Of a DNA stretch of 64,000 nucleotides, positions 7,439 through 60,286 are shown piece by piece (positions within the stretch are counted from its first letter, which is position 1; every line of letters starts with the position of its first letter). Under the pieces are notes generated by a model, which was not told where the DNA came from, made no database searches, and saw only the letters and a program-made list of their open reading frames with translations. Source of the stretch: Clostridiales bacterium (GTDB lineage: Bacteria; Bacillota; Clostridia; Oscillospirales; Acutalibacteraceae). The DNA is taken from the NCBI GenBank assembly GCA_012839345.1, contig DUNN01000036.1, positions 1-64,000 on the forward strand, written 5' to 3'. The translations under genes and the position numbers were made by a program.

Positions 7439-8122
7439 TTGAAACAGCTGGAAGAAGATTTGCGGGAACGACTGTTAGCTATGGGCGCTTCTTTGGTGGG
7501 CTTTGCCGATTTAACCGCACTCGGCTGGGACGGGATGAACCGGGGCGTATCCGTTGCAGTTGCCCTTCCCAAAGAGGTGGTCCGCTCGATTCAACATGGG
7601 CCGACACGTTCTTATTTTGAATCGTATCACCGTTTGAACGCACAGCTGGACCGTTTGGTGACCGCGGGTGCCGATTTCCTGCGGCAGAAGGGGTTCCGGG
7701 CCTTTGCGCAGACAACGGACGTGGTAACGGAAACGGAGGATTACCGGACCAGGCTGCCCCATAAAACAGTGGCAACCCGTGCGGGGCTGGGATGGATTGG
7801 AAAATCCGCCCTTTTGGTCACCCCAGAGTACGGCCCCGCGGTGCGGTTGTCCTCCCTGCTGACCGACGCGCCGCTGGATTGCGCGGAGCCGGTTGTTCAT
7901 TCCCAGTGCGGGAACTGCACGGCCTGCGCCGATGCCTGCCCCGGAAAGGCGATCACCGGGGAACTGTGGGAGCCGCGAAAAGACCGGGAAACCTTTTTTC
8001 ATGCACTGAAGTGCCGTTCAGCGGCGCGAAAGCTGGCGGCGGAAACCATCTATGAGGAAATTACACTTTGCGGACAGTGCATCTTTGTGTGCCCGTACGC
8101 GCGGCGTTATTATTTGGAGTGA
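7439..8122 (+). CDS. Epoxyqueuosine reductase-like double 4Fe-4S protein
   Basis: This 227-residue protein resembles the QueG family core: an N-terminal DUF1730-like part (about 1-150, with KTVATRAGLGWIGKSALLVTPE) and a ferredoxin-like part with CGNCTACADACP (about 158-169), a further Cys in ALKCRSA and CGQCIFVCPYAR near the end. Two 4Fe-4S clusters can be built from these cysteines. It lacks the C-terminal HEAT-like repeats of full QueG (about 380 residues), so it is a short relative of uncertain substrate rather than a proven queuosine enzyme. The likely start is TTG 7439, eight bases after CGGGAG; a GTG at 7430 overlaps that ribosome site. It starts 15 bases after whiA. Confidence 0.8.
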   Translation: MKQLEEDLRERLLAMGASLVGFADLTALGWDGMNRGVSVAVALPKEVVRSIQHGPTRSYFESYHRLNAQLDRLVTAGADFLRQKGFRAFAQTTDVVTETEDYRTRLPHKTVATRAGLGWIGKSALLVTPEYGPAVRLSSLLTDAPLDCAEPVVHSQCGNCTACADACPGKAITGELWEPRKDRETFFHALKCRSAARKLAAETIYEEITLCGQCIFVCPYARRYYLE

Positions 8123-9219: not shown

Positions 9220-10125
9220 TTGGAACTGAAGCAGATCAAGTGTTTTTATGAGACCTGTAAATATCATAGTTTTTCCGAAGCGGCAGAACACCTGTTTATG
9301 ACCCAGCAGGGTGTCAGCAAAACCATCCGCCAACTGGAAAAAGAACTGGGAGTACCGCTTTTTTCACGTTCTGCTGCGGGCATTTCCCTAACGCCGGAAG
9401 GGGAATATCTGAAAACGCGCAGTGAAATCCTTTTGATTGGGCTGGATGAAACGGTGAACCACCTGCACGCCATGCGGCAGGAGCACACACTTCGCCTCGG
9501 CCTGTCCAACGGCATGCGTCTGGTTCTTGCAGAAGATCTTTTGGAACGGTTCACGAATACTTTCCCGGAATGTTCCGTATGGGTAACGGAGGGCTCCGAC
9601 CTGCACTGCGAACAGGACGTCCGCAGCGGCGTTACCGATTTGGCGATTACCGTCGCGCCGGTGGACGAATCCGTTTTTGAAAAAATGTCTCTTTTTTCCG
9701 AACCGGTCTGTGTGCTGGTAAACCGGGACAATCCGCTTTCCAAAAAGGACACGCTGGAATTTGCGGATTTAAAAGGGCAGAAGCTGATTCTTTTGGATGA
9801 GCGGAACAAGTGTTATACCAACATTATTCGGCGCTGTTACCGGGAGGGGATTTATCCGGATATTGCATTTACCGTGCCGGAACTGCTTTCTGTTTTGGAG
9901 CTTTGCCAGTCGAATCAGGGGATCGCTTTTACGCTGCTCTGCCTGGAAAACAGGCTGACCTACGACCGGGTTCGCTTTCTGCCGCTGATTGGAGCAGACC
10001 AGTGGGAGCTTTGCATGATTACACGGAAAGGGGCGAAAGGAAATTCCGCCCTGGAAAAGTTCCGCGATTACATTTTAATGAGAAATGAGGAAAAAACTCT
10101 TTCCACCGGACTTGCCGCGGAGTAA
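9220..10125 (+). CDS. LysR-family transcriptional regulator
   Basis: This 301-residue protein has the N-terminal LysR winged helix-turn-helix (about 1-60; FSEAAEHLFMTQQGVSKTIR, with the recognition helix after TQQGVS) and a periplasmic-binding-protein-like effector domain (about 90-295). Start is TTG 9220, placed after ACAGGAGGCG. LysR proteins usually control the divergent neighbour, so the SDR oxidoreductase is the likely target; the effector is unknown. A NUDIX gene follows 30 bases later in the same direction. Confidence 0.93.
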   Translation: MELKQIKCFYETCKYHSFSEAAEHLFMTQQGVSKTIRQLEKELGVPLFSRSAAGISLTPEGEYLKTRSEILLIGLDETVNHLHAMRQEHTLRLGLSNGMRLVLAEDLLERFTNTFPECSVWVTEGSDLHCEQDVRSGVTDLAITVAPVDESVFEKMSLFSEPVCVLVNRDNPLSKKDTLEFADLKGQKLILLDERNKCYTNIIRRCYREGIYPDIAFTVPELLSVLELCQSNQGIAFTLLCLENRLTYDRVRFLPLIGADQWELCMITRKGAKGNSALEKFRDYILMRNEEKTLSTGLAAE

Positions 10126-44699: not shown

Positions 44700-45824
44700 A
44701 TGAAGAAATGGTTATCTGTTATCCTGGCATCGGTAATGGCGGTTTCTTTCACAGCCTGCGGCAACAGTTCGACGGCCACAAATGGCGCGGCGAACGGCGA
44801 TGCGTCTGCTGCGGTTTCCGCTGCGGCATCATCGGACACCGGCACCGCCAGCATGAAGACGGAAAGCGGCAAAACCATTACGGTCGGTTTTTCTCAGGTG
44901 GGCGCGGAGTCCGACTGGAGAACGGCGAACACCACTTCCATGAAGGACACATTCAGTACGGCCAACGGATTCAACCTAGTGTTTGACGATGCGCAGCAGA
45001 AGCAGGAAAACCAGATTACCGCAATTCGCAATTTCATTCAGCAAGAGGTTGACTACATCGTACTGGCGCCTGTTACTGAAACCGGCTGGGACACGGTGCT
45101 GAAAGAGGCTAAAGACGCCAATATCCCGGTCATTATTGTAGACCGTATGGTAAAGGTTTCGGACGAAAGCCTTTTCACCGCGTGGGTCGGTTCCAACTTT
45201 AAGCTGGAAGGCCAAAAGGCCGCCGCCTGGCTGAAGAATTTTGCAGATGCAAAGGGCCTGAAGGGTTCGGACCTGCACATTGTTGACATCCAGGGCACCA
45301 TCGGTGCATCTGCTCAGATTGGGCGTACGGAAGGTCTGGAGGAAGCCGCGAAGGAATACGGCTGGGATCTTTTGGCGAAGGAATCCGGCGAGTTTACTCA
45401 GGCCAAGGGCCAGGAAGTCATGGAGTCCTTCATCAAGCAGTACCCGAATCTCAATGTGGTTTACTGCGAAAACGATAACGAAGCATTCGGCGCCATTGAC
45501 GCATTAACTGCCGCTGGCAAGACGGTCGGTCCCGACATTAAGAACGGCCAGATTATGGTCCTGTCCTTCGACAGCACCAAGGCCGGACTGACCGACACAC
45601 TGAAGGGCAAAATTACGTTGAACACAGAATGCAACCCGCTTCATGGTCCCCGTGTAAAAAAGATTATTGATACGCTCGAGTCCGGCGGCACGGTAGACAA
45701 AAAAGCTTATGTTGACGAAGAAATGTTCAGTGCCGACACAACCGTTACCCAGGTTTCGGTTGGCGGCGAGAATTTCAACGTGACCAAATTGACACAGGAA
45801 GTTCTCGATAAGAGAGCATATTGA
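44700..45824 (+). CDS. Sugar-binding lipoprotein, YtfQ-like (module B)
   Basis: This 374-residue lipoprotein has a signal peptide and lipobox FTAC (about 17-20), then a two-lobed periplasmic-binding-protein type I domain (GFSQVGAESDWR near 65, IVLAPVTETGWD near 120, IVDRMV, and YCENDNEAFGAIDAL near 255). The sequence fits the YtfQ branch, which binds galactofuranose in E. coli and fructose-like sugars in others. ATG 44700 follows AAAAGGAGGA. A strong terminator follows, so much of the transcript may end here and give an excess of binding protein. Confidence 0.92.
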   Translation: MKKWLSVILASVMAVSFTACGNSSTATNGAANGDASAAVSAAASSDTGTASMKTESGKTITVGFSQVGAESDWRTANTTSMKDTFSTANGFNLVFDDAQQKQENQITAIRNFIQQEVDYIVLAPVTETGWDTVLKEAKDANIPVIIVDRMVKVSDESLFTAWVGSNFKLEGQKAAAWLKNFADAKGLKGSDLHIVDIQGTIGASAQIGRTEGLEEAAKEYGWDLLAKESGEFTQAKGQEVMESFIKQYPNLNVVYCENDNEAFGAIDALTAAGKTVGPDIKNGQIMVLSFDSTKAGLTDTLKGKITLNTECNPLHGPRVKKIIDTLESGGTVDKKAYVDEEMFSADTTVTQVSVGGENFNVTKLTQEVLDKRAY

Positions 45825-45900
45825 TCTGCTTGAGCATGGGAGGCGCCATCACCGCAGAGAAAAGCTGAAGAAAGTCCCACTGTTCCGGAGGAACGGAGTG

Positions 45901-45953
45901 AAAGAATGGCGTGATACGGGACGTTTGGAAACGGTATCACGCCATTCTTTTTT
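45901..45953 (+). terminator. Intra-operon terminator after the binding-protein gene
   Basis: AAAGAATGGCGTGATAC (45901-45917) and GTATCACGCCATTCTTT (45934-45950) form a perfect 17-base stem followed by TTT. It partly terminates before the ATPase gene. Confidence 0.92.
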
Positions 45954-46009
45954 ATCGGCGGGTGCGTTATATGTCGGAAGCAGACAACAAACAAAGGCAG
46001 GTGCAGAGA

Positions 46010-47548
46010 ATGAGTGACAGTTTGTTATTGTCCATGAGGGGAATTAGCAAGACTTTTCCGGGTGTGCGGGCTCTTTCGAATGTGGACTTTTCCCTGCGCA
46101 CGGGGGAAATTCACGCGCTGATGGGAGAAAACGGTGCAGGGAAATCGACGCTCATCAAAGTCTTGACAGGTGTTTATGAGTTGGAAAGTGGAGAAATCAG
46201 GATGGATGGCATCGACCATCCGATTGTCAATCGTTCTCCGCAGGAGGCGCAGGCCAACGGCATCAGCACGGTATATCAGGAGGTGAACCTCTGCCCGAAT
46301 CTTACGGTCGCAGAAAACCTGTTCATCGGTCGCCAACCAAAAAAATATGGCTTCATCGACTGGAAAACCATAAACCGAAAATCCGCAGAGATTCTGAAAA
46401 GCCTCGATATTAACGTGGAACCGGGAAAACTACTTGGGGAGTGCTCGCTGGCCATTCAGCAGATGATTGCCATTGCACGCGCCGTGGATATGCAGTGCCG
46501 TGTGCTGATATTGGATGAACCGACCTCATCGCTCGACGAGGAAGAGGTGGAAAAGCTGTTTGACCTGATGCGGAAGCTTCGGAGCGAAGGCGTCGGCATT
46601 ATTTTTGTTACCCATTTTCTGGACCAGGTTTATGAAGTGTGCGACCGCATTACCGTGCTGCGCAACGGCGAACTGGTGGGCGAATATCAAACGGAAAGTC
46701 TGCCGCGTGTGCAGCTTGTGGCGAAAATGCTCGGCAAGGAGTTCGACGACCTGGCCGAAATTAAGAGTGAGCGGAAAAATTCAGCAATCCCTGCGGAACC
46801 GGTGATCGAGGCGGAGGGGCTGACCCACGCGGGGACCATCAAGCCCTTTAACCTGACGATAAACAAAGGCGAAGTGATTGGCCTGACCGGTCTGCTCGGT
46901 TCCGGGCGTTCCGAACTGGTGCGTACCATTTACGGCGCCGACCGGCCCACCGGAGGAACACTGAAGGTAAATGGAAAAACAGTCAACATCACGAAGCCGC
47001 TGGACGCCATGAAAAACGGCATGGCGTATCTTCCGGAAGACCGGAAGAAGGACGGCGTCATCTCGGACCTTTCCGTGCGGGAAAACATCATTCTCGCCCT
47101 GCAGGCGAAGCGGGGAATGTTCCACCTGATGAGCCGGAAAGAAATGGACGAAGCGGCAGACCGGTTTATCGACCTGCTGGATATTAAAACGCCGGACCGA
47201 GAAAAACCGGTTGGCAGCCTTTCGGGCGGCAACCAACAGAAGGTCATCCTTGGACGTTGGCTGTTGACTAACCCGGACTACCTGATTCTGGACGAACCGA
47301 CCCGCGGCATCGACATCGGCACCAAGACGGAAATCCAAAAGCTGGTGCTGCAAATGGCGGATGAGGGCAAGGCCATCACTTTTATTTCTTCGGAAATTGA
47401 TGAGATGCTGCGCACTTGCTCGCATATCGCGGTGTTGCGCGACGGCAAAATGGTGGGCGAACTGACGGGCGAAGAGCTTACGCAGGCGCACATCATGCAG
47501 ACGATTGCCGGGAACCAGACCGGCGGGACAGGGGGAGCAGACGCATGA
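46010..47548 (+). CDS. Sugar ABC transporter ATP-binding protein, YtfR-like (module B)
   Basis: This 512-residue protein has two ABC domains. The first has Walker A GENGAGKS (about 38-45), a degenerate signature CSLAIQQM and Walker B LILDEPTSSLD; the second has a GLLGSGRS Walker A variant, the signature LSGGNQQK (about 405) and Walker B LILDEPTRGID. Such fused ATPases belong to ribose/galactose-type sugar importers. Start ATG 46010 follows AGGCAGGTG; ATG 45971 is an alternative. The permease gene overlaps its stop (ATGA, 47545-47548). Confidence 0.93.
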   Translation: MSDSLLLSMRGISKTFPGVRALSNVDFSLRTGEIHALMGENGAGKSTLIKVLTGVYELESGEIRMDGIDHPIVNRSPQEAQANGISTVYQEVNLCPNLTVAENLFIGRQPKKYGFIDWKTINRKSAEILKSLDINVEPGKLLGECSLAIQQMIAIARAVDMQCRVLILDEPTSSLDEEEVEKLFDLMRKLRSEGVGIIFVTHFLDQVYEVCDRITVLRNGELVGEYQTESLPRVQLVAKMLGKEFDDLAEIKSERKNSAIPAEPVIEAEGLTHAGTIKPFNLTINKGEVIGLTGLLGSGRSELVRTIYGADRPTGGTLKVNGKTVNITKPLDAMKNGMAYLPEDRKKDGVISDLSVRENIILALQAKRGMFHLMSRKEMDEAADRFIDLLDIKTPDREKPVGSLSGGNQQKVILGRWLLTNPDYLILDEPTRGIDIGTKTEIQKLVLQMADEGKAITFISSEIDEMLRTCSHIAVLRDGKMVGELTGEELTQAHIMQTIAGNQTGGTGGADA

Positions 47549-48603
47549 ACGCAAAAACAAAGTTTGACTGGGGAAAGCTGGTGCATTGGCGCTTTTTTAT
47601 GCCAATTGTATGTCTTTTTCTGGTTCTTCTTGTCAACGTTATTCAAACACCGGATTTCTTTGTAATATCCATTAACAATGGAGTACTGTACGGATATTTG
47701 ATCGATATTATCAACCGCGCTTCCGAGCTTGTTATCCTTGCGGTGGGCATGACGCTGGTAACGGCGGCTTCCGGTGGGCAGGACATCAGCGTAGGTGCGG
47801 TTATGGCGGTTGCGGCGGGCATTTGCTGTCAGATTCTTTCCGGCGGTGCGGTAAGCACGAACACGCTTATGGCTCCCATGGCGATTGCTATTCTTGCGGC
47901 ACTGGCAGCGTCCGTCCTTTGCGGCGCCTTTAACGGCTTTCTTGTTTCGGTGCTGGGCATTCAGCCCATGGTTGCCACACTGATTTTGTTTACAGCGGGC
48001 CGCGGCATCGCTCAGTTGGTGACCAAAGGGCAGATTACCTATGTGCGCGTCGATTCTTATCGGGTGATGGGCGGCTACATTGGCGCGTGCCCCGTGCCAA
48101 CTCCCGTCTTCTTTGCCATTGGAGTTGTCCTCGTGGTCAACCTGGTTTTAAATAAAACAGCGCTCGGTTTGTACATAGAAAGCGTAGGAGTCAATGGCTC
48201 GGCCTCGCGTTTGGTGGGCTTGAACAGCACCCACATTAAGTTTTTGACCTATGTGATTATGGGGCTGCTCTCCGGCGTGGCGGGGATAGTCGCTTCCAGC
48301 CGCATTTATTCGGCAGATGCAAACAATATTGGTCTGAACCTTGAAATGGACGCCATCCTTGCGGTGGCGCTGGGCGGCAACAACCTTGGCGGAGGCCGGT
48401 TTAACCTGATGGGCTCCGTAATTGGCGCTTACACCATTCAAGCGCTGACAACAACACTTTACGCGATGAAGGTTTCGGCCGATCAGCTCCCAGTTTACAA
48501 GGCGATTGTCGTCATCATTATTGTCGTCATTCAAAGTCCGGTTTTCCAGAAAAAATTCCGGAGCATGCGGCATGGAAAGGCGGTGACCGTCAATGCTGGA
48601 TAA
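47545..48603 (+). CDS. Sugar ABC transporter permease, YtfT-like (module B)
   Basis: This 352-residue protein has about nine to ten hydrophobic segments and the BPD_transp_2 features of ribose-type permeases: GGQDISVGAVMAVAAG (about 78) and AVALGGNNLGGGRFNLMGSV (about 270). It forms half of the importer channel with the next gene product. Translation is probably coupled through the 4-base overlap with the ATPase gene. Start ATG 47545. Confidence 0.92.
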   Translation: MNAKTKFDWGKLVHWRFFMPIVCLFLVLLVNVIQTPDFFVISINNGVLYGYLIDIINRASELVILAVGMTLVTAASGGQDISVGAVMAVAAGICCQILSGGAVSTNTLMAPMAIAILAALAASVLCGAFNGFLVSVLGIQPMVATLILFTAGRGIAQLVTKGQITYVRVDSYRVMGGYIGACPVPTPVFFAIGVVLVVNLVLNKTALGLYIESVGVNGSASRLVGLNSTHIKFLTYVIMGLLSGVAGIVASSRIYSADANNIGLNLEMDAILAVALGGNNLGGGRFNLMGSVIGAYTIQALTTTLYAMKVSADQLPVYKAIVVIIIVVIQSPVFQKKFRSMRHGKAVTVNAG

Positions 48604-49633
48604 GTTGACCCTTGTGAAAAAGAGCAAAAAGCCGGGCGCGGTTGCCTTTCTGCTCATGATTACGATTCTGCTTTTTGTTGTCATGTATTCCATTGGCATG
48701 ATTGTATTTGTCAACAAAGGCTTTGCCAAGCCGCAGATGTTTATGAATCTGTTCATTTCCAATGCGGGGCTGATTGTCATCAGCTGTGGGCTGACTATTG
48801 TGATGATCACCGGGGGAATTGATATATCCGTCGGTTCCGTGACGGCATTGGTGTGTATGGTGGCGGCAGACCTGATGGAACACAAAGGCATGAGCGTTTA
48901 CATGGCGCTGCTTTCCGCGCTGCTTATTGGGCTTGCTTTTGGCGTGGTGCAAGGATTTTTAATTTCATACCTTGACATTCAGCCGTTTATCGTTACGCTG
49001 GCGGGGCTGTTTTTTGGGCGCGGCATGACGGCTGTGGTCAGCACACAGATGATTGCAGTGAAAAACGCAGAGTTCCTGCAATGGGCCAACGCAAAAATCA
49101 ACCTGCCCATTGGGTACACCAAAAAGAACGGTACGTTTATTCCCTCATACATTTATCCCACGGTTGTGGTTGCACTCATTATTGTGATTCTCATCACTAT
49201 TATGCTGCAGCGCTGTAATTTTGGCCGAGAGCTGTACGCGATCGGCGGCAACCAGCAAAGCGCTCTTATGATGGGCCTGAATGTCCGCAGGGTGAAAATG
49301 AAGGCCTATGTTTTGGACGGACTGCTGGCCGGGCTCGGCGGATTCCTTTTCTGCCTGAACAGCTGCGCCGGGTTTGTAGAGCAGGCGAAAGGGTTGGAAA
49401 TGGACGCCATTTCTGCGGCGGTCATCGGCGGCACTCTGCTTTCCGGCGGCGTTGGAACCGTAGTGGGGACCCTGTTCGGTGTTCTCATCAAAGGTACGAT
49501 TGCAAGCCTGATTACCACACAGGGCACGCTTTCCAGCTGGTGGGTCAGAATCGTTCTCTCTGCGCTGCTCTGCTTCTTCATTGTTCTTCAGGCCATCATC
49601 GCCGGCGTGGGCGGGAAAAAGCTGAAAAAGTGA
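48593..49633 (+). CDS. Sugar ABC transporter permease, YjfF-like (module B)
   Basis: This 346-residue protein has about nine hydrophobic segments and the family motifs ITGGIDISVGSVTAL (about 66) and AAVIGGTLLSGGVGTVVGTL (about 280). It pairs with the YtfT-like permease; the two-permease arrangement matches YtfT/YjfF rather than the single RbsC of ribose systems. Its ATG (48593) lies inside the end of the preceding gene and follows AAAGGCGGTGA, so translation is coupled. Confidence 0.92.
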   Translation: MLDKLTLVKKSKKPGAVAFLLMITILLFVVMYSIGMIVFVNKGFAKPQMFMNLFISNAGLIVISCGLTIVMITGGIDISVGSVTALVCMVAADLMEHKGMSVYMALLSALLIGLAFGVVQGFLISYLDIQPFIVTLAGLFFGRGMTAVVSTQMIAVKNAEFLQWANAKINLPIGYTKKNGTFIPSYIYPTVVVALIIVILITIMLQRCNFGRELYAIGGNQQSALMMGLNVRRVKMKAYVLDGLLAGLGGFLFCLNSCAGFVEQAKGLEMDAISAAVIGGTLLSGGVGTVVGTLFGVLIKGTIASLITTQGTLSSWWVRIVLSALLCFFIVLQAIIAGVGGKKLKK

Positions 49634-49719
49634 TAGCCAACTTCTTACGATAATACGTTTCTCACCATGAGATGCCAAATCTTCCTGATTCCGGTTGAAT
49701 GGAACCGGTAAAAAGCAAC

Positions 49720-49768
49720 AGTCGCCGCCGCCCGTGTAAATGGGCGGCGGCGACTGCTTTTGCTTTTA
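49720..49768. terminator. Bidirectional terminator between module B and pflB
   Basis: AGTCGCCGCCGCCC (49720-49733) pairs perfectly with GGGCGGCGGCGACT (49742-49755), followed by GCTTTTGCTTTTATT; the other strand also has a T run. It separates the convergent importer and pflB genes. Confidence 0.92.
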
Positions 49769-49785: not shown

Positions 49786-52032
49786 TTAAATCCTATCGTG
49801 GCAGGTTCTTGCAATAACGTCGAGCTGCTGTTCTCTTGTCAAATCAATGAATTTAACGGCATATCCCGAGACACGGATCGTAAAGTTCGCGTATTCCGGC
49901 TTTTCGGGGTGCTCCATAGCGTCCTTCAGCTTTTCTACGCCAAACACGTTCACGTTCAGGTGATGGGCGCCGCGGTCAAAATATCCATCCAGAACATGGA
50001 CCAGAGTTTCGGTCTGTTCTTCTTCCGTATGCCCAAGTGCACCCGGGTTGACGGTCTGCGTATTGGAAATACCGTCAAGCGCATACTCGTAAGGGAGTTT
50101 TGCAACTGAGTTCAGGGAAGCAAGAAGGCCGTTCTTTTCTGCGCCGTAGGATGGATTTGCGCCAGGTGCCAGCGGTGTCCAAGCTGGTCTGCCATCCGGA
50201 AGCGTACCGGTATTCTTACCGTAAACAACATTGGAGGTAATGGTAAGAATGGACGTGGTTGGTTCCGAATTGCGGTAGGTGTGGTATTTCCGAAGCTTCT
50301 TCATGAAGGTTTTCAGCAGCCACACGGCAATCTCATCCGCGCGGTCGTCGTCGTTTCCGTAACGCGGGAAATCACCCTCAATCTTAAAGTCCACAGCCAC
50401 GCCGTTTTCATTGCGCACAGGCGTTACCTTTGCGTACTTAATAGCGGATAGGGAGTCGACCACGTGGGAGAACCCGGCGATACCGGTCGCAAAGGTTCTT
50501 CTTACGTCGGTGTCAATCAGCGCCATTTCTGCTGCTTCATAGTAATACTTATCATGCATATACTGAATCAGGTTCAGAACGTTTACATAAAGTCCTGCCA
50601 ACCAGTCCATCATGACGTCGTATTTTGCCATGACATCGTCATAATCAAGCACATCAGAGGTAACGGGCTTGTAGGCGGGGCCAACCTGATCGCCGCTCTT
50701 TTCATCAATACCGCCGTTAATGGCATACAGCAGGCACTTGGCAAGATTTGCGCGAGCGCCGAAGAACTGCATTTCTTTACCGGTCTGTGTTGCGGACACG
50801 CAGCAGCAGATGCTGTAGTCGTCGCCCCAGATTGGACGCATTACGTCGTCGTTTTCGTACTGGATGGAACTTGTTTTCACGGAAATATAGGCCGCATACT
50901 TCTTATAGTTTTCCGGCAGTTTGGAGGAGTAAAGAACCGTAAGGTTCGGCTCCGGTGCAGGGCCCATGTTTTCCAGCGTATGCAGGAAACGGTAATCGTT
51001 CTTGGTTACCATGTGGCGGCCGTCCATGCCAAGGCCTGCGGTTTCCAGGGTAGCCCAAACCGGGTCGCCGGAGAACAGCTGGTTGTAAGACGGAATACGC
51101 GCGAACTTCACCATTCTGAGCTTTAATACCAGGTGGTCAATCAGTTCCTGCGCTTCCTTTTCGGTCAGCGTTCCTTCCTTCAAGTCACGGTCAATATAAA
51201 TGTCGAGGAAGGTGGACACACGGCCAACGCTCATAGCCGCGCCGTTCTGGCTTCGGATTGCTGCCAGATACCCAAAGTACAGCCACTGGACGGCTTCCTT
51301 TGCGTTGCTGGCAGGCTTGGAAATATCGAAGCCGTATCCTGCTGCCATTTCCTTCATTTGCTTCAATGCCCGAATTTGGTCCGAAAGCTCTTCTCGCTGG
51401 CGAATGATATCGTCCGTCATAATACCGGAGCCGCAGTAGGCAAGGTCTTCCTTCTTCTTTTCAATCAGGAAGTCGATGCCGTAAAGCGCGACACGGCGGT
51501 AATCGCCGACGATGCGTCCGCGTCCGTAGGTGTCCGGAAGGCCGGTGATGATCTTATTGTGACGTGCTTTCTTCATTTCCGGTGTATACGCGTCAAAAAC
51601 GGCCTGATTGTGCGTCTTGTGATATTCTGTAAAAATCTTGTGCAGTTCGGGGTCCGGGGTGTAGCCATAGGTGGTGCAGGCTTCCTCTGCCATCCGGATT
51701 CCACCGTAGGGCATGAACGCCCGCTTCAGGGGCTTGTCTGTCTGCAGTCCCACAACTTTTTCCAGGTCCCGGGTATCGCTGTCGATATAAGCAGGGCCAT
51801 AGGCGTTAATGCCGGAAACCACCTTGGTTTCCATGTCCAAAACACCGTTTTTGGCCCTTTCCTGCTTCTGCAGCTCCTGTACTTTTGCCCAGAGTTTGTT
51901 GGTCGCCTCGGTCGGGCCTTCCAAAAAGCTTTGGTCCCCGTCATATGGTGTATAGTTATTCTGGATGAAATCTCTCACATTGACATCATCCGTCCAATGT
52001 GAACCCTTGAAACTTCTCCATTCCTGCTTCAT
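49786..52032 (-). CDS. pflB: Pyruvate formate-lyase
   Basis: PflB splits pyruvate with CoA into acetyl-CoA and formate using a glycyl radical. The 748-residue length fits. The catalytic cysteines lie in [11 protein letters not shown] (Cys409-411 region) and the radical glycine is Gly723 in RVSGYAV near the C-terminus. FTIR and VNVFGVEKL precede it as in family members. The radical is installed by the activase encoded upstream. A perfect FNR site with a well-placed -10 lies in front of this gene, so it can be transcribed independently of pflA. ATG 52032 follows AGTAAGGAGTGG. Confidence 0.97.
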
Positions 52033-52086
52033 AGTACCACTCCTTACTTGAGATGTTCTGCAGCTCTCTTCTGCGGTTGTGCCTTT

Positions 52087-52128
52087 ACTTTAACGTATTT
52101 CACATGCTAATTCCTTGATTGTAATCAA
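52087..52128 (-). promoter_or_regulatory. pflB promoter with FNR box
   Basis: TTGATTGTAATCAA (52115-52128) is a perfect TTGAT-N4-ATCAA palindrome. A minus-strand TAAAGT (52087-52092) begins 29.5 bases from its centre, which is the class II FNR geometry (site centred at -41.5). Confidence 0.82.
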
Positions 52129-52159
52129 TAAATCAGTTTTTTCCTGTCAACGGTTCCAT

Positions 52160-52906
52160 TCATTTACCGACGATATCGCTTTCACCACGAAGAATGCATT
52201 CGGCGTGTTTGACACGTTGTGCACTGGGGGATTCCACTCCCTTGAGGGAATAGGGAATGCCGAGTTCGTTCCATTTATATTCGCCCATGGCGTGGTAAGG
52301 CAGCACTTCGATCTTCTTTACATTTCGAAGCGTAGCGATGAAGTCCCGCGTTCTGTGCAGGTAACCATCATCGTCCGTAATCCCCGGAACCAGCACATGC
52401 CGAATCCAGATGGGCTTGTCAATATCGGACAGATAGCGGAACAGTTCCAAGATATTATCATTCGGCTGGCCCGTCAGCTTTTTATGCTCTTCGGGGTCAA
52501 TATGCTTAATGTCCATCAGAAGAAGGTCGGTGTACCGCATCAGCTCCTCAAATTTCGAGAAAAACGGTTCTTCTTTTGTGAAAGGCTGACCGGCTGTGTC
52601 GATGACGGTATTAATTCCAAGCGCTTTAGCCTTTTGAAACAGATCAAGAAGAAAGTCAATCTGCAAAAGGGGTTCCCCGCCGCTAACCGTAATGCCGCCT
52701 TCCTTACCCCAATAACTGCGGTATCTTTGCGCCTGCTCCAGCAGTTCGTCTGCCGTACGCAAATCGTTGGAATGTGGGTCCCATGTATCTACGTTGTGGC
52801 AGTAGCGGCAGCGCATTTTGCATCCCTTTAAAAAGATTAGGAATCGAATGCCCGGGCCGTCAACGGAACCGAAGGACTCTGTGGAATGGATTGCTCCTCG
52901 AATCAT
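52160..52906 (-). CDS. pflA: Pyruvate formate-lyase-activating enzyme
   Basis: This 248-residue radical SAM protein uses S-adenosylmethionine and a 4Fe-4S cluster to make the glycyl radical on PflB. The cluster motif is CKMRCRYC (Cys29, Cys33, Cys36) after GSVDGPGIRFLIF, and SGGEPLLQ is the SAM-binding GGE motif. ATG 52906 is chosen for spacing from AAAGGGGG; ATG 52912 is adjacent. The activase lies upstream of the lyase, the reverse of the usual pflB-pflA order. There are 127 bases between the two genes, room enough for the pflB promoter. Confidence 0.96.
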   Translation of the reverse strand: MIRGAIHSTESFGSVDGPGIRFLIFLKGCKMRCRYCHNVDTWDPHSNDLRTADELLEQAQRYRSYWGKEGGITVSGGEPLLQIDFLLDLFQKAKALGINTVIDTAGQPFTKEEPFFSKFEELMRYTDLLLMDIKHIDPEEHKKLTGQPNDNILELFRYLSDIDKPIWIRHVLVPGITDDDGYLHRTRDFIATLRNVKKIEVLPYHAMGEYKWNELGIPYSLKGVESPSAQRVKHAECILRGESDIVGK

Positions 52907-52931
52907 ATGCATCCCCCTTTCTTGTACGCTT

Positions 52932-52973
52932 ATCATACTCCCACTTTTGCTCTGTTTCTTTGATTATAATCAA
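52932..52973 (-). promoter_or_regulatory. pflA promoter with FNR box
   Basis: TTGATTATAATCAA (52960-52973) is a perfect FNR-type palindrome. A minus-strand TATGAT -10 (52932-52937) starts 29.5 bases from its centre, again class II spacing, giving a start near 52925. Confidence 0.88.
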
Positions 52974-53011
52974 GTTTTGAATCGGCGGACAGTAAAACAC
53001 CCGAAGATGCT

Positions 53012-53058
53012 CAAAAACAAAGGGCTTGCCGCCTGCGTTTTACAGGCGGCAAGCCCTT
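53012..53058 (-). terminator. Terminator of the FNR-like gene
   Basis: AAGGGCTTGCCGCCTG (53020-53035) pairs perfectly with CAGGCGGCAAGCCCTT (53043-53058); on the minus strand it is followed by TGTTTTTGA. Confidence 0.92.
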
Positions 53059-53097
53059 ACGACTGTTTTATTCGAATGGTCTGATTTGTTAGGCCGC

Positions 53098-53817
53098 TCA
53101 ATGGCTGGACCCATAGACTTTTTTCAAACCGCTGCGGTCGGTAACCATAATTTTCCCATGGCCGAGCCGTTTGATCAGATTGGCTTTTTCAAACTGGCTC
53201 AGGTTCCTGCTTACGGTTTCCGGGCGCAGCCCAATGCTTGCGGCGATGTCTTCCAGCTTCAGCTTGATTTCCGGCCCGACGCACCGGATGTCCCGGTCCA
53301 GCAAAAATCCCGCCAGCCGTACCTTCGGGTCGCGGATGGAAAGCAGCAGTGCTTTTTCATTGGAGTCCTTTAGCCGAAGGGAGAGAAGCGAAATTAGGTT
53401 CATGGCGATGTTCGGACGCTCCGCAATCAACTGCATAAATTCGCTCTTTTTAATTTCGCACAACTCCACTTTGGACAGGCACACCGCGGAATACGGAAAA
53501 ACGGCATTTTCAAGGAAGAGGTTTTCCCATATGGCGTCCCCGTCGTGAATGATGTCAAGAATGTATTCGTTTCCGTCGGCATCATATTTACAGAGCTTGA
53601 TTCTTCCCTTTCGGATGATTAAAACAGAGTCCACTTTTTCCCCTACACGGAACAGGAAGCTGCCTTTTGCCTTGGTTGTCTGAATGGAGTGATCCGTAAG
53701 GCTTCTCTGTACGTCTGCCGGAAGTGCGCTGAACAGTGGGATTGTTTGTGTGCACCAAATGCTGTTTTTACAGTTTGCACAACTGGGCAGAGCTTTTTTA
53801 TTCGCTTTTTCCATCAT
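53098..53817 (-). CDS. Crp/Fnr-family regulator, FNR-like oxygen sensor
   Basis: This 239-residue protein has a cNMP-like beta-roll (about 30-150) and a helix-turn-helix (about 170-225). The N-terminus has Cys13-x2-Cys16-x5-Cys22, the same spacing as Cys20/23/29 of E. coli FNR, so a 4Fe-4S cluster is likely; further cysteines in the beta-roll (AVCLSKVELCEI) could supply a fourth ligand. The recognition helix RPETVSRNL carries the E-x-x-S-R pattern that reads TTGAT. Two perfect TTGAT-N4-ATCAA sites stand before pflA and pflB next door. ATG 53817 or the adjacent ATG 53814 follows GAAAGGA. Confidence 0.92.
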   Translation of the reverse strand: MMEKANKKALPSCANCKNSIWCTQTIPLFSALPADVQRSLTDHSIQTTKAKGSFLFRVGEKVDSVLIIRKGRIKLCKYDADGNEYILDIIHDGDAIWENLFLENAVFPYSAVCLSKVELCEIKKSEFMQLIAERPNIAMNLISLLSLRLKDSNEKALLLSIRDPKVRLAGFLLDRDIRCVGPEIKLKLEDIAASIGLRPETVSRNLSQFEKANLIKRLGHGKIMVTDRSGLKKVYGSSH

Positions 53818-54122
53818 AGCATCCTTTCCGTGAATTTTAATCGCCCATGGTATTTTGTTGGTGTTGCACTTATTTTACTATGCCTATTTCAAAGATACAA
53901 GGCCGCGAAAGAATTGTGATTGAAACTGTATGGGAAAAAACTAGAATGTAAGAAACGGTACTGTTGGGCATTCGGCGCGGTACCCAGAATCTTCGCTGCA
54001 AGGGCGATTTTCCGCCTTGAACGAAACTAAATATTGGCTGCATTGACGAAACTGGTGAAAGCTGGAACCAGGAGCTTTCTTTTTCGGTAGACAGATCTGT
54101 TTTATAACGTATACCAGGCAGA

Positions 54123-54170
54123 AAAAGGGTACCGCAAAAGGAATGCTTCATCATTCTGCGGTACCCTTTT
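54123..54170 (-). terminator. Terminator of the module C degradation genes
   Basis: AAAAGGGTACCGCA (54123-54136) pairs with TGCGGTACCCTTTT (54157-54170), with an inner GAATG/CATTC pairing; the minus strand continues TTTTTC. The 53818-54122 stretch holds no gene I can support. Confidence 0.9.
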
Positions 54171-54225
54171 ATGGTAAAAAATTATGGTTGAATCCGTCCT
54201 TTATGGGCGCTCTTGGTTAGCCGGT

Positions 54226-55014
54226 TTAGGCTTCTGTACCGAAGAGCTCCAACTGGGTCAGCGCCGGGAATGGGGAGGGGTCATCGGCTTTTCGAAGTGT
54301 GTCAAGTTTTACCCATTCCACTGTTTTTGGCTCAATGCGGAAGGACTGTGCCTCTCCGCTTTTCACCAGCGGGAACGTTTGGCTGCTGCCGTCCGAAAAA
54401 TGCAACGTTGCGCTTTCCCACCAAGCGTCATGCGGGAAGTCCGCGCGCAGGTAGAATACCACTTCATCCAGCCGTACCTTGCGCCCGAAATCCAGCGTCC
54501 ATTCGGCTTGCGGATTTCGGTTGATGCCCCAGCTTGAATACGGCCATTCCCCGTGGAAGGTGTTGGCTTTCAGCCCGTCGATTGCATTGCGCGCGGCGAA
54601 TACGGCTTCTCCCCGCGTTTCGACGTTGGCGCTTGCATGTGGGAACAAACTATTGTTTTCGTGTTCGTCCAGCGGGTTAAAGGCAAGGTTTTTGCGCGCG
54701 GCGATTTCATCGGGCGAAGCGTAGCGCGCATACAACAGGTGCCGAGTCCCGGAAAAAGCGCGGGGAGAGTAAGAAACACGCTTCTCGCCGAACGGAATGT
54801 AAAAGACAAAGCGGTCTGTTTTTAAAAAGGTGAAAGCAGGCGCAAGGGTATCGTCAAACTGGAGTACTACGAAGCGGCCGGGTTCACTGCTTTCTATCAC
54901 CAGGCAGTCACCCTGCGTATATTCGGGGTCATATACTAGGTTCACTTCGGTTTTGCCCGCCGCACAGGCGAGCGTTTCGCCGGAAGCATTCGTAATTTTC
55001 AGGGTAAGGCTCAT
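54226..55014 (-). CDS. F5/8-type C (discoidin-like) domain protein (module C)
   Basis: This 262-residue protein has an N-terminal beta-rich part (about 1-110, unrecognised) and a C-terminal discoidin/F5-8C-like sandwich (about 115-262: NAIDGLKANTFHGEWPYSSW, NPQAEWTLDFGRKVRLDEVV and a closing LTQLELFG). Such modules bind carbohydrate, usually outside the cell, but this protein has no signal peptide. It is probably a cytoplasmic accessory or an unclassified enzyme working with the adjacent heparinase-like protein. ATG 55014 follows AAAGAGGAA. It ends the minus-strand operon. Confidence 0.75.
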   Translation of the reverse strand: MSLTLKITNASGETLACAAGKTEVNLVYDPEYTQGDCLVIESSEPGRFVVLQFDDTLAPAFTFLKTDRFVFYIPFGEKRVSYSPRAFSGTRHLLYARYASPDEIAARKNLAFNPLDEHENNSLFPHASANVETRGEAVFAARNAIDGLKANTFHGEWPYSSWGINRNPQAEWTLDFGRKVRLDEVVFYLRADFPHDAWWESATLHFSDGSSQTFPLVKSGEAQSFRIEPKTVEWVKLDTLRKADDPSPFPALTQLELFGTEA

Positions 55015-55057
55015 TTTAGGTTCCTCTTTCTTTCGTGGAATTACTTAAAACTAATTG

Positions 55058-56848
55058 TTATTGAAGATTCAGGGTCAACTGTCCTTCAAAGCGGATGAGT
55101 ACGCGCCAAAGGGTTTCGGGCCAGGCAAGGCGCAGGCGGGGGTCGTTAATCGGGATGCTTTCCACACGAAGCTCGCCACGGTCCGCCGAAACGGTGCCCA
55201 GGCTGCCCACCGCGATGGTGCGGCCGGTGAAGCCGGGCTTTTCGCAGAACATCAGGCTCAGCACCGCTTCGCTTCGGCTGCCGGAAAAACGGTCCTCCAC
55301 GGTGATGCCGGCGCCCTTATGCAGCGTGACACGGCGAAGGTAATGTTCTACCCCCGCCTCGGGCGGATAGGCCCCGGCAATATCCATAGAAATGCTGCTT
55401 TGGTTTTCCTTAAAGGAAACCTCCACATCGCGGGCGGCAAAGGCCGCACCGTCTTTCTGCATCACCCCTCCGAAGGTGGGCAGATTGTGGTAGGCGGACT
55501 GCATGGTCCAAATTTCGTAGCGGCGCGGGGAAAAGGTCTTTTTCGTGTAGCTTTCCACGCCGACGTCAATTAGGAACGGCAGACCATTTTTATAGACGGT
55601 GAAACTGCCGGTATCGTTGTGGTTGTGGCTGTCGTTGTTGTCGCCAGCCTTCACAGCCAAGCAGTAAGCGGAATCCCGCGCGATAAAAATGCCAACGCTC
55701 GGGTAGTAGAGTTCCGGGTGACGCACTGGCTTTTCTGGGTGGTATGCACTGATTTCATTTGCTAGAAAAGCGGCCTGAAGCCGATAGAACAGGTTAATTT
55801 CATCTGGTAGGTCCCGGTCTTCGCTTTTCTGCCATTCCTCCGCGGCAAACGCGGTGAGGTTAGGATTTTCCGTGCGCAGCCCGAACAGAAATTCACGTAC
55901 CCCGGCACGGCCTGCAATGGGGGAACAGTCGGCAAAATTGATGTAGTATTTGTCATCCACATGCATGCTCAGAATATAGGCGGCAAGATTGCGGATTTTG
56001 GGTTTGCGGTAAAGCGGCGCAAATACATTCCCGCAAACGGCGTTGAGCACTTCTGTCGCGTTTAGCAGGCAGAGTCCGGCGTGGCGGTAGTACTGCGCAC
56101 CTTCCTCGCAGCAGCCGTCCTCACCATAGTCCTTCAAAAAGCAGTCCAAGCTGTAAGCGGCCTGCCGCACCGTATGTTGTTTAATATCCTGCGGCTGGTC
56201 CGTGGTGAATACAGTAATCAGCACGTTTTGCGTGCACCAGGGCGTCCAGTTGCACATGGGCTCGTCCCCGTTGCCCATCCACCAGAAGTGACGGTTTAAG
56301 TAAGGCGTGACAATGCGGGTGTTCAGCTCGGAGAGGATGCGTTTGCAGATGAGCGGGCTTACCGCGTCCAGTTCCTCGCGCAGCAGATAGCGCACCATGG
56401 CCAGCTGAGCGCCAGTTTCGCAGGCAAACAGGTCCAGTACGGGCGCTTCGGTGTCCGGAAGAATCCGTTGCGGCGTGTCGCGCACGTAGCTGTTGTGCGC
56501 TGGAAGCTGCCAGCCGCTCTCCTCACAAAGGGCATAAATGCCGTCGATGACGCCGTCGAGAAAGCGTCCCTTCCGCTCGACAAATTCAGCCAGCGCAAGC
56601 GCATTCAACGTTCTGCGCCGAGCCATGTAAAGCGCTTCAAACCGGACGCGGTTTCCGGTGCGGCAAAAGTCCATGTAGGCGGTTGCCGGAATGGCCGGGT
56701 AAGGTTGGTTCAGCGCCTCTTCACCGCGCTTTATAAGCTGCGTGGCGGTTTCTTCGGAAAGTGCGGCGCGGTCAATGCGACCGTTTTGCGCAAAGGGAGT
56801 GAAGTCCGCCAGCTGCGTCGGCAGAAAACTGAGTATTTCTGAAAACAT
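55058..56848 (-). CDS. Heparinase II/III-like polysaccharide lyase (module C)
   Basis: This 596-residue protein has an alpha/alpha-barrel-like N-terminal half (about 1-370) and a beta-sandwich C-terminal half, with the SHNHNDTGSFTVYKNG motif (about 405-421) that carries the metal and catalytic histidine region of heparinase II/III proteins. Such lyases cleave uronate-containing glycans by beta-elimination, and some act on alginate or other polyuronates; the substrate cannot be fixed. It has no signal peptide, so it should act on imported oligosaccharides. ATG 56848 follows CGGGGAT. It sits 43 bases from the discoidin-like gene and 13 bases after the regulator gene. Confidence 0.82.
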   Translation of the reverse strand: MFSEILSFLPTQLADFTPFAQNGRIDRAALSEETATQLIKRGEEALNQPYPAIPATAYMDFCRTGNRVRFEALYMARRRTLNALALAEFVERKGRFLDGVIDGIYALCEESGWQLPAHNSYVRDTPQRILPDTEAPVLDLFACETGAQLAMVRYLLREELDAVSPLICKRILSELNTRIVTPYLNRHFWWMGNGDEPMCNWTPWCTQNVLITVFTTDQPQDIKQHTVRQAAYSLDCFLKDYGEDGCCEEGAQYYRHAGLCLLNATEVLNAVCGNVFAPLYRKPKIRNLAAYILSMHVDDKYYINFADCSPIAGRAGVREFLFGLRTENPNLTAFAAEEWQKSEDRDLPDEINLFYRLQAAFLANEISAYHPEKPVRHPELYYPSVGIFIARDSAYCLAVKAGDNNDSHNHNDTGSFTVYKNGLPFLIDVGVESYTKKTFSPRRYEIWTMQSAYHNLPTFGGVMQKDGAAFAARDVEVSFKENQSSISMDIAGAYPPEAGVEHYLRRVTLHKGAGITVEDRFSGSRSEAVLSLMFCEKPGFTGRTIAVGSLGTVSADRGELRVESIPINDPRLRLAWPETLWRVLIRFEGQLTLNLQ

Positions 56849-56861
56849 AAAGATCCCCGTT

Positions 56862-58469
56862 TCAAAGTTTATTTTTCATATATTCCCTGGGCGAACAGCC
56901 TTCCACCTTTTTAAAGACTTTACTGAAATAGAAAGCGCTCTCAAATCCAAGTGCTTCGGCAATTTCGTAAATCTTTTCGTTGCCGTCTGCCATCATTTTT
57001 TTCGCTGCCGCGATCTTTTCCTGTGTGATGTATTCCACAAAGTTACAGCCAGCGGAGCGGGTAAAAAGCTGGCTCAGGTAATTTGGGCTGAACCCGAAAA
57101 CAGCCGCTACCTCGTTGAGGGAGAGCTTTTTATTTAGGTTTTCGCGAATATAACCCTGCACCTCGACCACAATTCTGTCTTTGTAACTTTGTTTCCGGTT
57201 TTGCAGCACTTCCTGCAAGCCATCCCGGAATTTAAGAATCCAGGCGAGAATTTCGTCGGTCGTACGTTTGGCGTAAATGCTGCGGAATCCCTCGCGGTCG
57301 TCAGCAAAAATCTGGGAAACAGTTTGTTCACCGTCCGGCAGCATAGAAATCGCCATATAAAGAAGGCTGCACGCAGCGTCCATTGCCTGCAGACGGCGGG
57401 CCGGGCTGTCGCGGAAGCTTTCGGCAATCTCCGTAATCAGTGTATACAAGGCGTTGCCGTCCAGCTCGGTGTAAGCTTTGGCGAGCCGGTCCTTATACTG
57501 GGAAAGGTCGAACACTGCGGTGTTGTTTGCAGTTTCACCCAAACGCTCGGCAAACAGAATGGGGTCCTGAGCAGAGACACTGTGAAAAATCTGCCGTGCC
57601 GCGTAGAACGATTCTGAGAGACGAAAAGGGTCATCCACTTTGGTACCCACAGCGCAGATCAACCGGACGTTGAAATAATTGTAGACAATGGAAATTGTCT
57701 TTTCCAGTACGTTTTTCAGCACATCGCAGTAGGTGGGCACCTCCTGCTCACTTAGGCAGAAAGTAATGCTGAAATGGCGCATGTCCAGGCTGGTGATATA
57801 GCAGGCCATGTATTTGGTGATGGTTTCGCGCACCATGCGGATGGTGCTGGAATACAGTTTAACGAGCTTTTCGTCGCTCATCCCCGCACTGTTGATCCCG
57901 AGAACCTCGCAGTAGCAGACAGCGTAGGCTTCAAAGGAAAAATCCATGCCGAGTTCTGTGCGCTGCATCCGGTACTGCTCCCGGTTTTCAAACAGATTGT
58001 TCAGCAGGCGCACAAAAAAGCGGTCGTAAAAAGCCTGCATTCCGCCACGCTCTTCCGGCGCCTGGCGGACCCCTTCACTTTTTTTCAAATCCCGCAGCAG
58101 GTCAACGGCCTTGGCAATGGAGGCGGCCAGCGTTTCCGGCGTAAGCTCCAACTTAATGAGGTAATCCACCGCCTGATAACTGATGGCTTCTTTGACGAGC
58201 TGAAACTCTTCAAAACTGGTCAGCAGAATAAACAAGGGGAGTCGACCGTATGTTTCGCGGCAGTATTTCATGACCTCAAGACCGGATTTCAGCGGCATTT
58301 TAATATCGGCGATTACAAGGTCGGGCGAATACCGCTGGATCATTTCCAGCGCTTCCCCGCCGTTGTGCGCGGTGCCGCAGATTTCAATATCGTAGTCCTC
58401 CCACTTCAGCATGGATTGCAGACCGACCAGCACAAGCGGCTCGTCGTCTGCCAGAAGCAGTTTAATCAT
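56862..58469 (-). CDS. YesN-type response regulator with AraC domain (module C)
   Basis: This 535-residue regulator has a receiver domain (ADDE at 8-11, phospho-acceptor Asp55 in VIADIKMP, the conserved lysine in DYLIKLEL rather than the usual LLKP), a long linker and a C-terminal AraC domain (about 425-535, AAVFGFSPNYLSQLFTRSAG and EALGFESAFYFSKVFKKVEG). It likely activates the divergent importer and the lyase genes. Its ATG overlaps the kinase stop codon (58466-58469), so the two are coupled. Confidence 0.93.
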   Translation of the reverse strand: MIKLLLADDEPLVLVGLQSMLKWEDYDIEICGTAHNGGEALEMIQRYSPDLVIADIKMPLKSGLEVMKYCRETYGRLPLFILLTSFEEFQLVKEAISYQAVDYLIKLELTPETLAASIAKAVDLLRDLKKSEGVRQAPEERGGMQAFYDRFFVRLLNNLFENREQYRMQRTELGMDFSFEAYAVCYCEVLGINSAGMSDEKLVKLYSSTIRMVRETITKYMACYITSLDMRHFSITFCLSEQEVPTYCDVLKNVLEKTISIVYNYFNVRLICAVGTKVDDPFRLSESFYAARQIFHSVSAQDPILFAERLGETANNTAVFDLSQYKDRLAKAYTELDGNALYTLITEIAESFRDSPARRLQAMDAACSLLYMAISMLPDGEQTVSQIFADDREGFRSIYAKRTTDEILAWILKFRDGLQEVLQNRKQSYKDRIVVEVQGYIRENLNKKLSLNEVAAVFGFSPNYLSQLFTRSAGCNFVEYITQEKIAAAKKMMADGNEKIYEIAEALGFESAFYFSKVFKKVEGCSPREYMKNKL

Positions 58470-60286
58470 TTACGACTTCCTCCCTCGGAACCGGTTTCGG
58501 GAAGCGGCCGCCAGGGAAGCAGAATGGCGGTTTTGGTGTAAATGCCCGGTTCACTTGTAATGGTAATTCCATAGTGTTCGCCGAATTCGTACTGAATTCT
58601 TTTGTGAACGTTTAGAATGCCGACCTGGCGGAACATGCCGGAGGGGGCATCCCCGTCCCCATCAAAGATTTTCTGAATGCTTTCGGCGTCCATGCCCACC
58701 CCGTCGTCCGTCACGGTGAGCTCCACGTCGCCGTCTTCCCGGCGGCGGCCTTTTACCTCAATGTGACCCGCGCCGCCTTTGGGTTCAATTCCGTGAAACA
58801 CGGCGTTTTCCAGCAAAGGCTGGAGCGTGAAGCGGGGGATGGCGTTTTGCAGGATGCCGTCATCCATCTCTTTTGTCATAGTAATGGCTCCGCCATAGCG
58901 GTATTGTTGAATTACAAAATAATCGTCCAGCAGGCTGAGTTCCTCTTCAAGGGGAATCATCTTTTCCGTGCCCTTAGAAATATTTTTTAGCAGCCGGGAA
59001 AGTGCGGTTGTCATTTCCGCAATGCCTGTGGCGTTCTGAATAGTGGCCATCCATTTGATGGAGTTCAGCGTGTTATAAAGGAAATGCGGATTAATTTGGC
59101 TTTGCAGCATCTGGTATTCCAGTTCCTGCTTTTTCTTTTCGTCCGCCAGCCTGGTCTGCATTAGATTGACCACGTTGTGGGAAAGCTGATTAATTCCACG
59201 GCCCACTTCGCCAAGTTCGTTATCCCACTCGATTTCCGGATCGTAGGAAAAATCTCCATGGGAAATCAGGACCATCCGCTTTCTCATTTTGGCCACCGGC
59301 GTGTTAATTAAGTGGTTTAAATAGGCGGTGATAAGGCTGCCGAGGGCAATGATGCCGATGCAGATGAGAATGGTCAGCCTGATAAAGTTGTTCCGCTGTT
59401 CGGCAAGCTGCTGCTCGGAAAGACTGTTGGAAAGGGTCATTCCGGTACCGCGCACCGGGTAGCTTACCAAAGTCTTCTTAACACCGTGCTGGAACCCGAG
59501 AACGGAAATTTCGGTTTTCGCGTCCAGTGTTTCCGAATTGCTGTTAGCTTGGGTCTTAGCAAAATCCTTAGGAAGCAGAGTAAAGTTTGCTCCGGCGTAC
59601 TGATAGGTGTTGCCGCCAAGTTTCAGGTAAAGGCTGCTGTCCGGCGGGACAACATAATTGGAAAGCTGGTCGGTAATCAGGCGGATGTCGACCGCCAGAT
59701 AGACGTAGCCGATAATTTCTTTGTTGGTGGGCCGGAAAATCGGGCGCACCATGGGAATGGTATTTTTCGGTTCGGCAGGGTCTACGTTATAAGGATCCGT
59801 TTCAATTTTCTGCCAGGCATACGCCTGCTTGGGGGCACCAGGGAATAGCAGGTTCAGATTGTAAACGTTGACCGGCAGCGTTTCGGTGGAGGCGCTGCCA
59901 ACCTGCAAAAACCGGGTATGCTGTGTATCCATGACGATGACCCGGCGAATGTAGCTGCCCGCGCGGTTGTTCTGGTATTCTTCCTTAAGACGGTTGTAGG
60001 TGCGAAACGCTTCGGAGGGGCTTACTTCCGCAGCCTCCAAATAAGAAATAATCTGGCTGTTGGTACTGCACCATTTGCTGAGAGTGTCCAGTGCGGCGGA
60101 ATCCTGTGCGATTAGCCCGGAAACCAGCTGCAGATTAAATTCTGTAGATTGGATCTGATTCCTTCTTGCGTAGGACTGAAACTGGGAGTAACTGACCGTG
60201 GCAAAGAAGATGGTGACAAAAAGGGTAAAAAGAATGGTGACCATCCGGATTTTTGATTTAATTGTTTTCAGAAATCTCCGCTTCAT
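58466..60286 (-). CDS. YesM-type sensor histidine kinase (module C)
   Basis: This 606-residue membrane kinase has an N-terminal helix (about 12-34), an extracellular dCache-like sensor (about 38-295), a second helix (about 300-320), a HAMP domain (about 320-375), the His_kinase motif QINPHFLYNT (His about 400) and a GHKL ATPase (QPLLENAVFHG, DDGVGM). It should sense a sugar or oligosaccharide outside the cell. It is the first gene of the minus-strand regulator-lyase operon and faces away from the importer operon. Confidence 0.94.
   Translation of the reverse strand: MKRRFLKTIKSKIRMVTILFTLFVTIFFATVSYSQFQSYARRNQIQSTEFNLQLVSGLIAQDSAALDTLSKWCSTNSQIISYLEAAEVSPSEAFRTYNRLKEEYQNNRAGSYIRRVIVMDTQHTRFLQVGSASTETLPVNVYNLNLLFPGAPKQAYAWQKIETDPYNVDPAEPKNTIPMVRPIFRPTNKEIIGYVYLAVDIRLITDQLSNYVVPPDSSLYLKLGGNTYQYAGANFTLLPKDFAKTQANSNSETLDAKTEISVLGFQHGVKKTLVSYPVRGTGMTLSNSLSEQQLAEQRNNFIRLTILICIGIIALGSLITAYLNHLINTPVAKMRKRMVLISHGDFSYDPEIEWDNELGEVGRGINQLSHNVVNLMQTRLADEKKKQELEYQMLQSQINPHFLYNTLNSIKWMATIQNATGIAEMTTALSRLLKNISKGTEKMIPLEEELSLLDDYFVIQQYRYGGAITMTKEMDDGILQNAIPRFTLQPLLENAVFHGIEPKGGAGHIEVKGRRREDGDVELTVTDDGVGMDAESIQKIFDGDGDAPSGMFRQVGILNVHKRIQYEFGEHYGITITSEPGIYTKTAILLPWRPLPETGSEGGSRK

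Follow-up and report, generated by a model that had tools for sequence, protein, structure and literature searches.

What would an FNR-type regulator control, and what would it sense, when it lies next to the pyruvate formate-lyase (PFL) genes of a fermenting bacterium? FNR is the textbook oxygen sensor of facultative anaerobes, and the question is raised by a 64,000-nucleotide (nt) stretch of contig DUNN01000036.1 from a Clostridiales bacterium (the window, meaning the whole stretch analyzed), whose named relatives are Oscillospiraceae-type. Its minus strand carries an FNR-like regulator of 239 amino acids (53098..53817), pflA, encoding the PFL activating enzyme (52160..52906), and pflB, encoding formate C-acetyltransferase (49786..52032). 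An earlier note on this DNA had assigned the same identities, and they are borne out by profile scores (302.5 bits against TIGR02493, cut-off 231.75, for PflA; 1163.2 bits against TIGR01255, cut-off 994.2, for PflB) and by the retention of the radical S-adenosylmethionine motif C-x3-C-x2-C in PflA and of the glycyl-radical motifs Cys-Cys and RVSGY in PflB. As judged from sequence, these genes probably form a self-contained pfl cassette, in which the FNR-type activator is dedicated to the two pfl promoters.

Exactly two perfect TTGAT-N4-ATCAA boxes occur in the window, one upstream of each pfl gene, against an expectation of 0.10; two boxes were reached in 1 of 100 dinucleotide-preserving shuffles. 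A motif scan places the pflA box (TTGATTATAATCAA) at 52960..52973 and the pflB box (TTGATTACAATCAA) at 52115..52128, both on the minus strand. As the earlier note had claimed, and as rereading confirmed, each box centre lies 29.5 bases from a -10 hexamer on that strand: TATGAT at 52932..52937 (first base 52937) for pflA and TAAAGT at 52087..52092 (first base 52092) for pflB, with predicted transcription starts at about 52925 and 52080. The usual site of single activating FNR boxes in E. coli is -41.5 (PMC7349173), and a distance of 29.5 bases is the position expected of a box centred there. The open reading frame (ORF) list begins pflA at 52936, which would precede the predicted transcription start, so the alternative start at 52906, preceded by AAGGGGG, is more likely the true one, a small correction to the ORF call.

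The earlier note had also proposed a genome-wide scan for the palindrome. Across the 2.53-Mb genome there are 8 perfect boxes, against about 4 expected when the window expectation is scaled up. Reading frames contain four of the six that are not associated with pfl; of the other two, L007 is intergenic (near an aconitase-like gene and lacking a -10 at 29.5 bases) and L008 is unplaced. Only the two pfl promoters combine a box and a -10 that are both free of mismatches; allowing one mismatch adds six places, of which four are in reading frames and two are intergenic (L128 and L131), both weak. A reversed-pattern control gave 2 and 18 versus 8 and 114, but it alters dinucleotide content, and we did not count it as evidence. 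A global FNR regulon was rejected for this genome, given 8 boxes against about 4 expected and the background-like character of those outside pfl. Because mismatch-free combinations are confined to these two promoters, the regulator looks dedicated to pfl rather than global. No box with two or fewer mismatches, as autoregulation would suggest, occurs at 52974-59054, upstream of the regulator. As a separate observation, the one-mismatch box of L128 (G000 contig C2 206915-206956) has class II spacing and lies upstream of another CRP-type regulator, which is divergent from a ferredoxin gene and has a helix, SRPSMSR, that resembles those of HcpR types.

The regulator itself belongs to the CRP/FNR superfamily (63.2 bits against PF00027, cut-off 27.5; 55.2 bits against PF13545, cut-off 27), and its fold matches include holo-FNR 5e44 (rank 31, E = 1.2e-15). 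The translation confirms the cysteine spacing and the recognition helix described in the earlier note. On the minus strand, codons 53752..53781 specify C13-x2-C16-x5-C22, which also align with E. coli FNR and are putative cluster ligands, and codon 53458..53460 specifies C120, aligned without gaps with C122 of E. coli FNR, giving four cysteines in FNR spacing. The helix RPETVSR (53206..53226, minus strand; translation and alignment) contains E-x-x-S-R, and, together with TTGAT-N4-ATCAA sites in class II position, it is what is looked for in an Fnr. These features are shared with FNR of E. coli and A. fischeri (the source of holo-FNR 5e44), as is the CRP/FNR fold.

In contrast to FNR, the window regulator scores far below the cut-off of the NCBIfam Fnr model (NF008365; 60.7 bits versus 228), carries W97 (codon 53527..53529, minus strand) in place of G, has an additional cysteine, C113 (codon 53479..53481, minus strand), and is linked to pfl and apparently dedicated to it, whereas FNR is global. 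In a tree of 42 rows, the 28 rows of pfl-linked proteins group as one clade (support 98/97), separate from E. coli FNR and from other CRP/FNR proteins of Bacillota, with inner joins that are unsure owing to long branches. W97 marks 28/28 clade rows, compared to G in 14/14 outgroup rows, and C113 is present in 26/28 clade rows and 1/14 outgroup rows; L023, L026, and L072 yielded no row in the alignment and are absent from both the alignment counts and the tree. By alignment and tree, the regulator is not Fnr proper but a member of a separate, W97-marked clade. What survives of the FNR circuit described in the earlier note would be an FNR-type regulator with class II boxes upstream of pflA and pflB, but not Fnr itself and not a global role.

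If the boxes serve this regulator, they should accompany it elsewhere. Two sets of pfl loci were compared: 24 from records that carry the regulator and 27 with no regulator in the stretch read, an absence that applies to those stretches and not to whole genomes. The comparison omits L053 and L056, whose stretches contain a truncated pfl or none, L063 and L145, whose stretches contain no pfl, and repeat copies of any one locus. In 22/24 loci of the regulator-carrying records and 0/27 of the others, pflA or pflB is preceded by a perfect box at a distance of at most 300 bases (Fisher p 1.8e-12, uncorrected for relatedness of the loci), and box presence tracks regulator presence also inside one genus and inside a single genome, G566. 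In 23 of these 24 loci the regulator is next to the pfl genes or almost so, whereas in L152 (on the same contig as L144) about 6.5 kb separates them. All 23 classifiable regulator-linked loci have the order pflA then pflB, and L148 has pflB alone. Loci lacking the regulator have pflB then pflA in 23 cases, the reverse in 1, and an undetermined order in 3, so the activase-before-lyase order is indeed unusual, as first noted, with 23 of the 24 regulator-less loci of determinable order showing the opposite arrangement.

The spacing is conserved along with the boxes. Counting boxes with no more than one mismatch, 30 of 34 have a -10 hexamer (scored for A in position 2 and T in position 6) that begins exactly 29.5 bases from the centre. 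Mean agreement with TATAAT is 4.21 at this distance; the second-best distance reaches 2.76, and no distance exceeded 2.88 in 2000 shuffles. The two-box layout holds in the window but is not universal: a perfect box precedes only pflA in a rumen group (L057, L058, L059, and L062) and only pflB in L076-L080. One W97-clade member, L145 (G1421), has as its neighbor the gene for the alpha subunit of an indolepyruvate ferredoxin oxidoreductase; a perfect box is present at 1950, with TAGAAT at 29.5 bases.

Because few genomes were matched in searches of the family (8/200 genomes at E 1e-20, 4 of these in the clade), order (4/394 at E 1e-28), and phylum (11/398 at E 1e-26, only 2 in the clade), the regulator is sparsely distributed. 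With a relative as query, 9/299 genomes of a second family matched at E 1e-45, 8 of them in the clade, and a named genome collection yielded 15 loci with the regulator, 14 in the clade. Within the window's genus, 9/11 genomes have a PflB-type match, which is of the cassette type (94-100%) in three (G000, G571, and G566) and a 56-62% version in the remainder. G566 carries a boxed pflA-pflB cassette and, in addition, a pflB-pflA pair lacking boxes (L039 and L040, on one contig), and these two sets would fit a horizontal gain of the cassette.

The genes, ligand residues, boxes, spacing, conservation, and linkage can all be read directly from the DNA, and the likeliest input of the window regulator, though not of the whole family, would be the integrity of a [4Fe-4S] cluster, as set by oxygen, nitric oxide (NO), or iron supply. 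With the cluster intact on C13, C16, C22, and C120, the regulator would dimerize, and the dimer would bind both boxes, centred at -41.5 in the pflA and pflB promoters. The bound protein would then contact RNA polymerase as a class II activator, turning on both genes from separate promoters. Oxygen, NO, or a poor iron-sulfur (Fe-S) supply would break the cluster, and pflA and pflB would be off. Oxygen destroys PFL, and the PFL activase is itself an Fe-S enzyme, and for these reasons FNR logic fits pfl: with cluster loss shutting the genes off, an oxygen-killed glycyl-radical enzyme and its Fe-S activase would be made only when Fe-S chemistry works.

How far the cluster can be extended to the clade depends on its cysteines. 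The equivalent of E. coli C122 (C120) is present in 27/28 clade rows, and at least three N-terminal cysteines accompany it in 25/28. Their arrangement varies: C-x2-C-x5-C in 8/28 rows (L047 with one extra cysteine in between), C-x5-C-x2-C-x3-C in 7/28, C-x2-C-x3-C in 6/28, and four one-off patterns (L144, L146, L147, and L149). L063 has two widely spaced N-terminal cysteines, which disappear if the shorter start used in the alignment is correct. L060 has no N-terminal cysteine and retains C113 and C120, and L148 has no sensor-domain cysteine at all, with W and Y at the places of C113 and C120 and a single cysteine near the C terminus. A ligand-less relative of L060 was not found in its genus, where the protein occurs in only 1/8 genomes. 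N-terminal cysteines were probably lost at least twice, because L063 lies in one half of the clade and L060, or L148, in the other; the case for independent losses in L060 and L148 depends on weakly supported forks of the tree.

Several of these observations weigh against a cluster-sensing pfl cassette. L060 and L148 both keep perfect pfl boxes with the -10 at 29.5 bases; since they do so without ligands, an Fe-S step is not needed everywhere. The AlphaFold model of the window regulator (mean predicted local distance difference test [pLDDT] score 80.0, predicted template modeling score [pTM] 0.54) is disordered over residues 1-21 (pLDDT <50) and thus carries no weight for or against a cluster. 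The counts over loci are made on related, not independent, loci. Two regulator-carrying loci lack a perfect box (L055, with one mismatch, and L147, with TTGACCGCGGTCAA, two mismatches), and the exceptions to the 29.5-base distance comprise three boxes in L055 and L064, with the hexamer at 28.5, and an extra box of L148. The Fe-S cluster that the earlier note had assumed seems reasonable for the window protein but not for the whole clade.

The regulator could instead be dedicated to activating pfl but respond to something other than, or in addition to, Fe-S, through a C113/C120 thiol pair or through ligand binding in the cyclic-nucleotide-type pocket (W97, E98, and Y109), with the N-terminal cysteines serving only for tuning. 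The rarity of W97 and C113 outside the clade (0/14 and 1/14 rows) fits such an input, as does an N-terminal spacing that differs by group and is missing in L060 and L148, where boxes and spacing persist. L148 (G1617) has three perfect boxes upstream of pflB, at 6106, 6168, and 6201, and a fourth, at 9464, upstream of formate-tetrahydrofolate ligase, which makes a one-carbon or formate signal thinkable. We nevertheless consider a non-Fe-S input unlikely for the window protein, given how widely the N-terminal cysteines and C120 are retained; a thiol pair is not universal, being absent from L148 too, and L060 and L148 each represent one genome on a long branch. Tentatively, and as a possibility we regard as somewhat doubtful, the clade could comprise pfl-dedicated activators with a fixed DNA code and class II geometry but an exchangeable sensor, its ligands re-spaced and sometimes lost, such that strict anaerobes would couple an FNR box to a signal other than Fe-S, be it a metabolite, a thiol, or no signal at all.

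Other explanations would detach the boxes from their neighbor. This genome encodes four other CRP-type proteins, three of them CRP/FNR paralogues that match at E 0.01 or better and one encoded next to a ferredoxin, any of which might use the boxes, leaving the adjacent regulator incidental; yet E-x-x-S-R is absent from all four, and the boxes follow the regulator across loci, within one genus, and within G566, making this quite improbable. Least credible, to the point of being nearly negligible, is that chance palindromes happen to stand at ordinary housekeeping promoters. The modest genomic excess of boxes and the background-like character of the other six, at least four of them in reading frames, would agree with chance, but two boxes in this window far exceed expectation, boxes are conserved across divergent cassettes, and the mismatch-free pairing with a -10 is unique to these two sites. 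The cassette with a dedicated FNR-type activator thus remains our preferred reading.

Some features lie around this cassette. Consensus scans find terminator-like hairpins on the minus strand between the regulator and pflA (53020..53058) and downstream of pflB (49717..49758). The flanks (44700-49633 and 54226-56848) read as a sugar ATP-binding cassette transporter set and polysaccharide-degradation-like genes. Rex-type sites have three matches in the window at three mismatches, versus 3.73 expected, and none near pfl.

Among known regulators of anaerobes, HcpR of Clostridia and delta-proteobacteria likewise is a CRP/FNR-family protein that adjoins its own targets, but those targets are hcp and redox genes rather than pfl, and HcpR proteins are described as lacking the FNR cysteine motif, with HcpR2 sites of GTAAC-N4-GTTAC (PMC1274295). 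The window regulator, which has the FNR cysteine motif and pfl targets, does not fit that description. A sister branch (L150 and L061), adjacent to the clade in the tree, has a box of the same sequence next to its regulator but differs in having G at position 97 and, by sequence resemblance, stress-defence targets. In L150 (G1351), a perfect box at 6869 lies between the regulator and a ric/scdA-like gene, and in L061 one at 7642 lies between the regulator and a flavodiiron-like gene, both pointing to stress defence. E. coli pfl is reportedly induced through ArcA and FNR, as Sawers and Suppmann are said to have described in 1992. Titles and abstract beginnings of open-licence PubMed Central articles yielded no description of a pfl-linked FNR-type regulator clade or cassette in Clostridia.

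Here, an FNR-like protein would guard an oxygen-killed enzyme of fermenting bacteria through one or two clean target promoters. Its relatives form a ready comparison, having full ligands, altered spacing, no N-terminal cysteine, or no sensor cysteine, each with perfect pfl boxes. Because ligand-less relatives keep the same output wiring, the signal sensed is a testable question, and what FNR senses where oxygen is rare becomes directly accessible to experiment.

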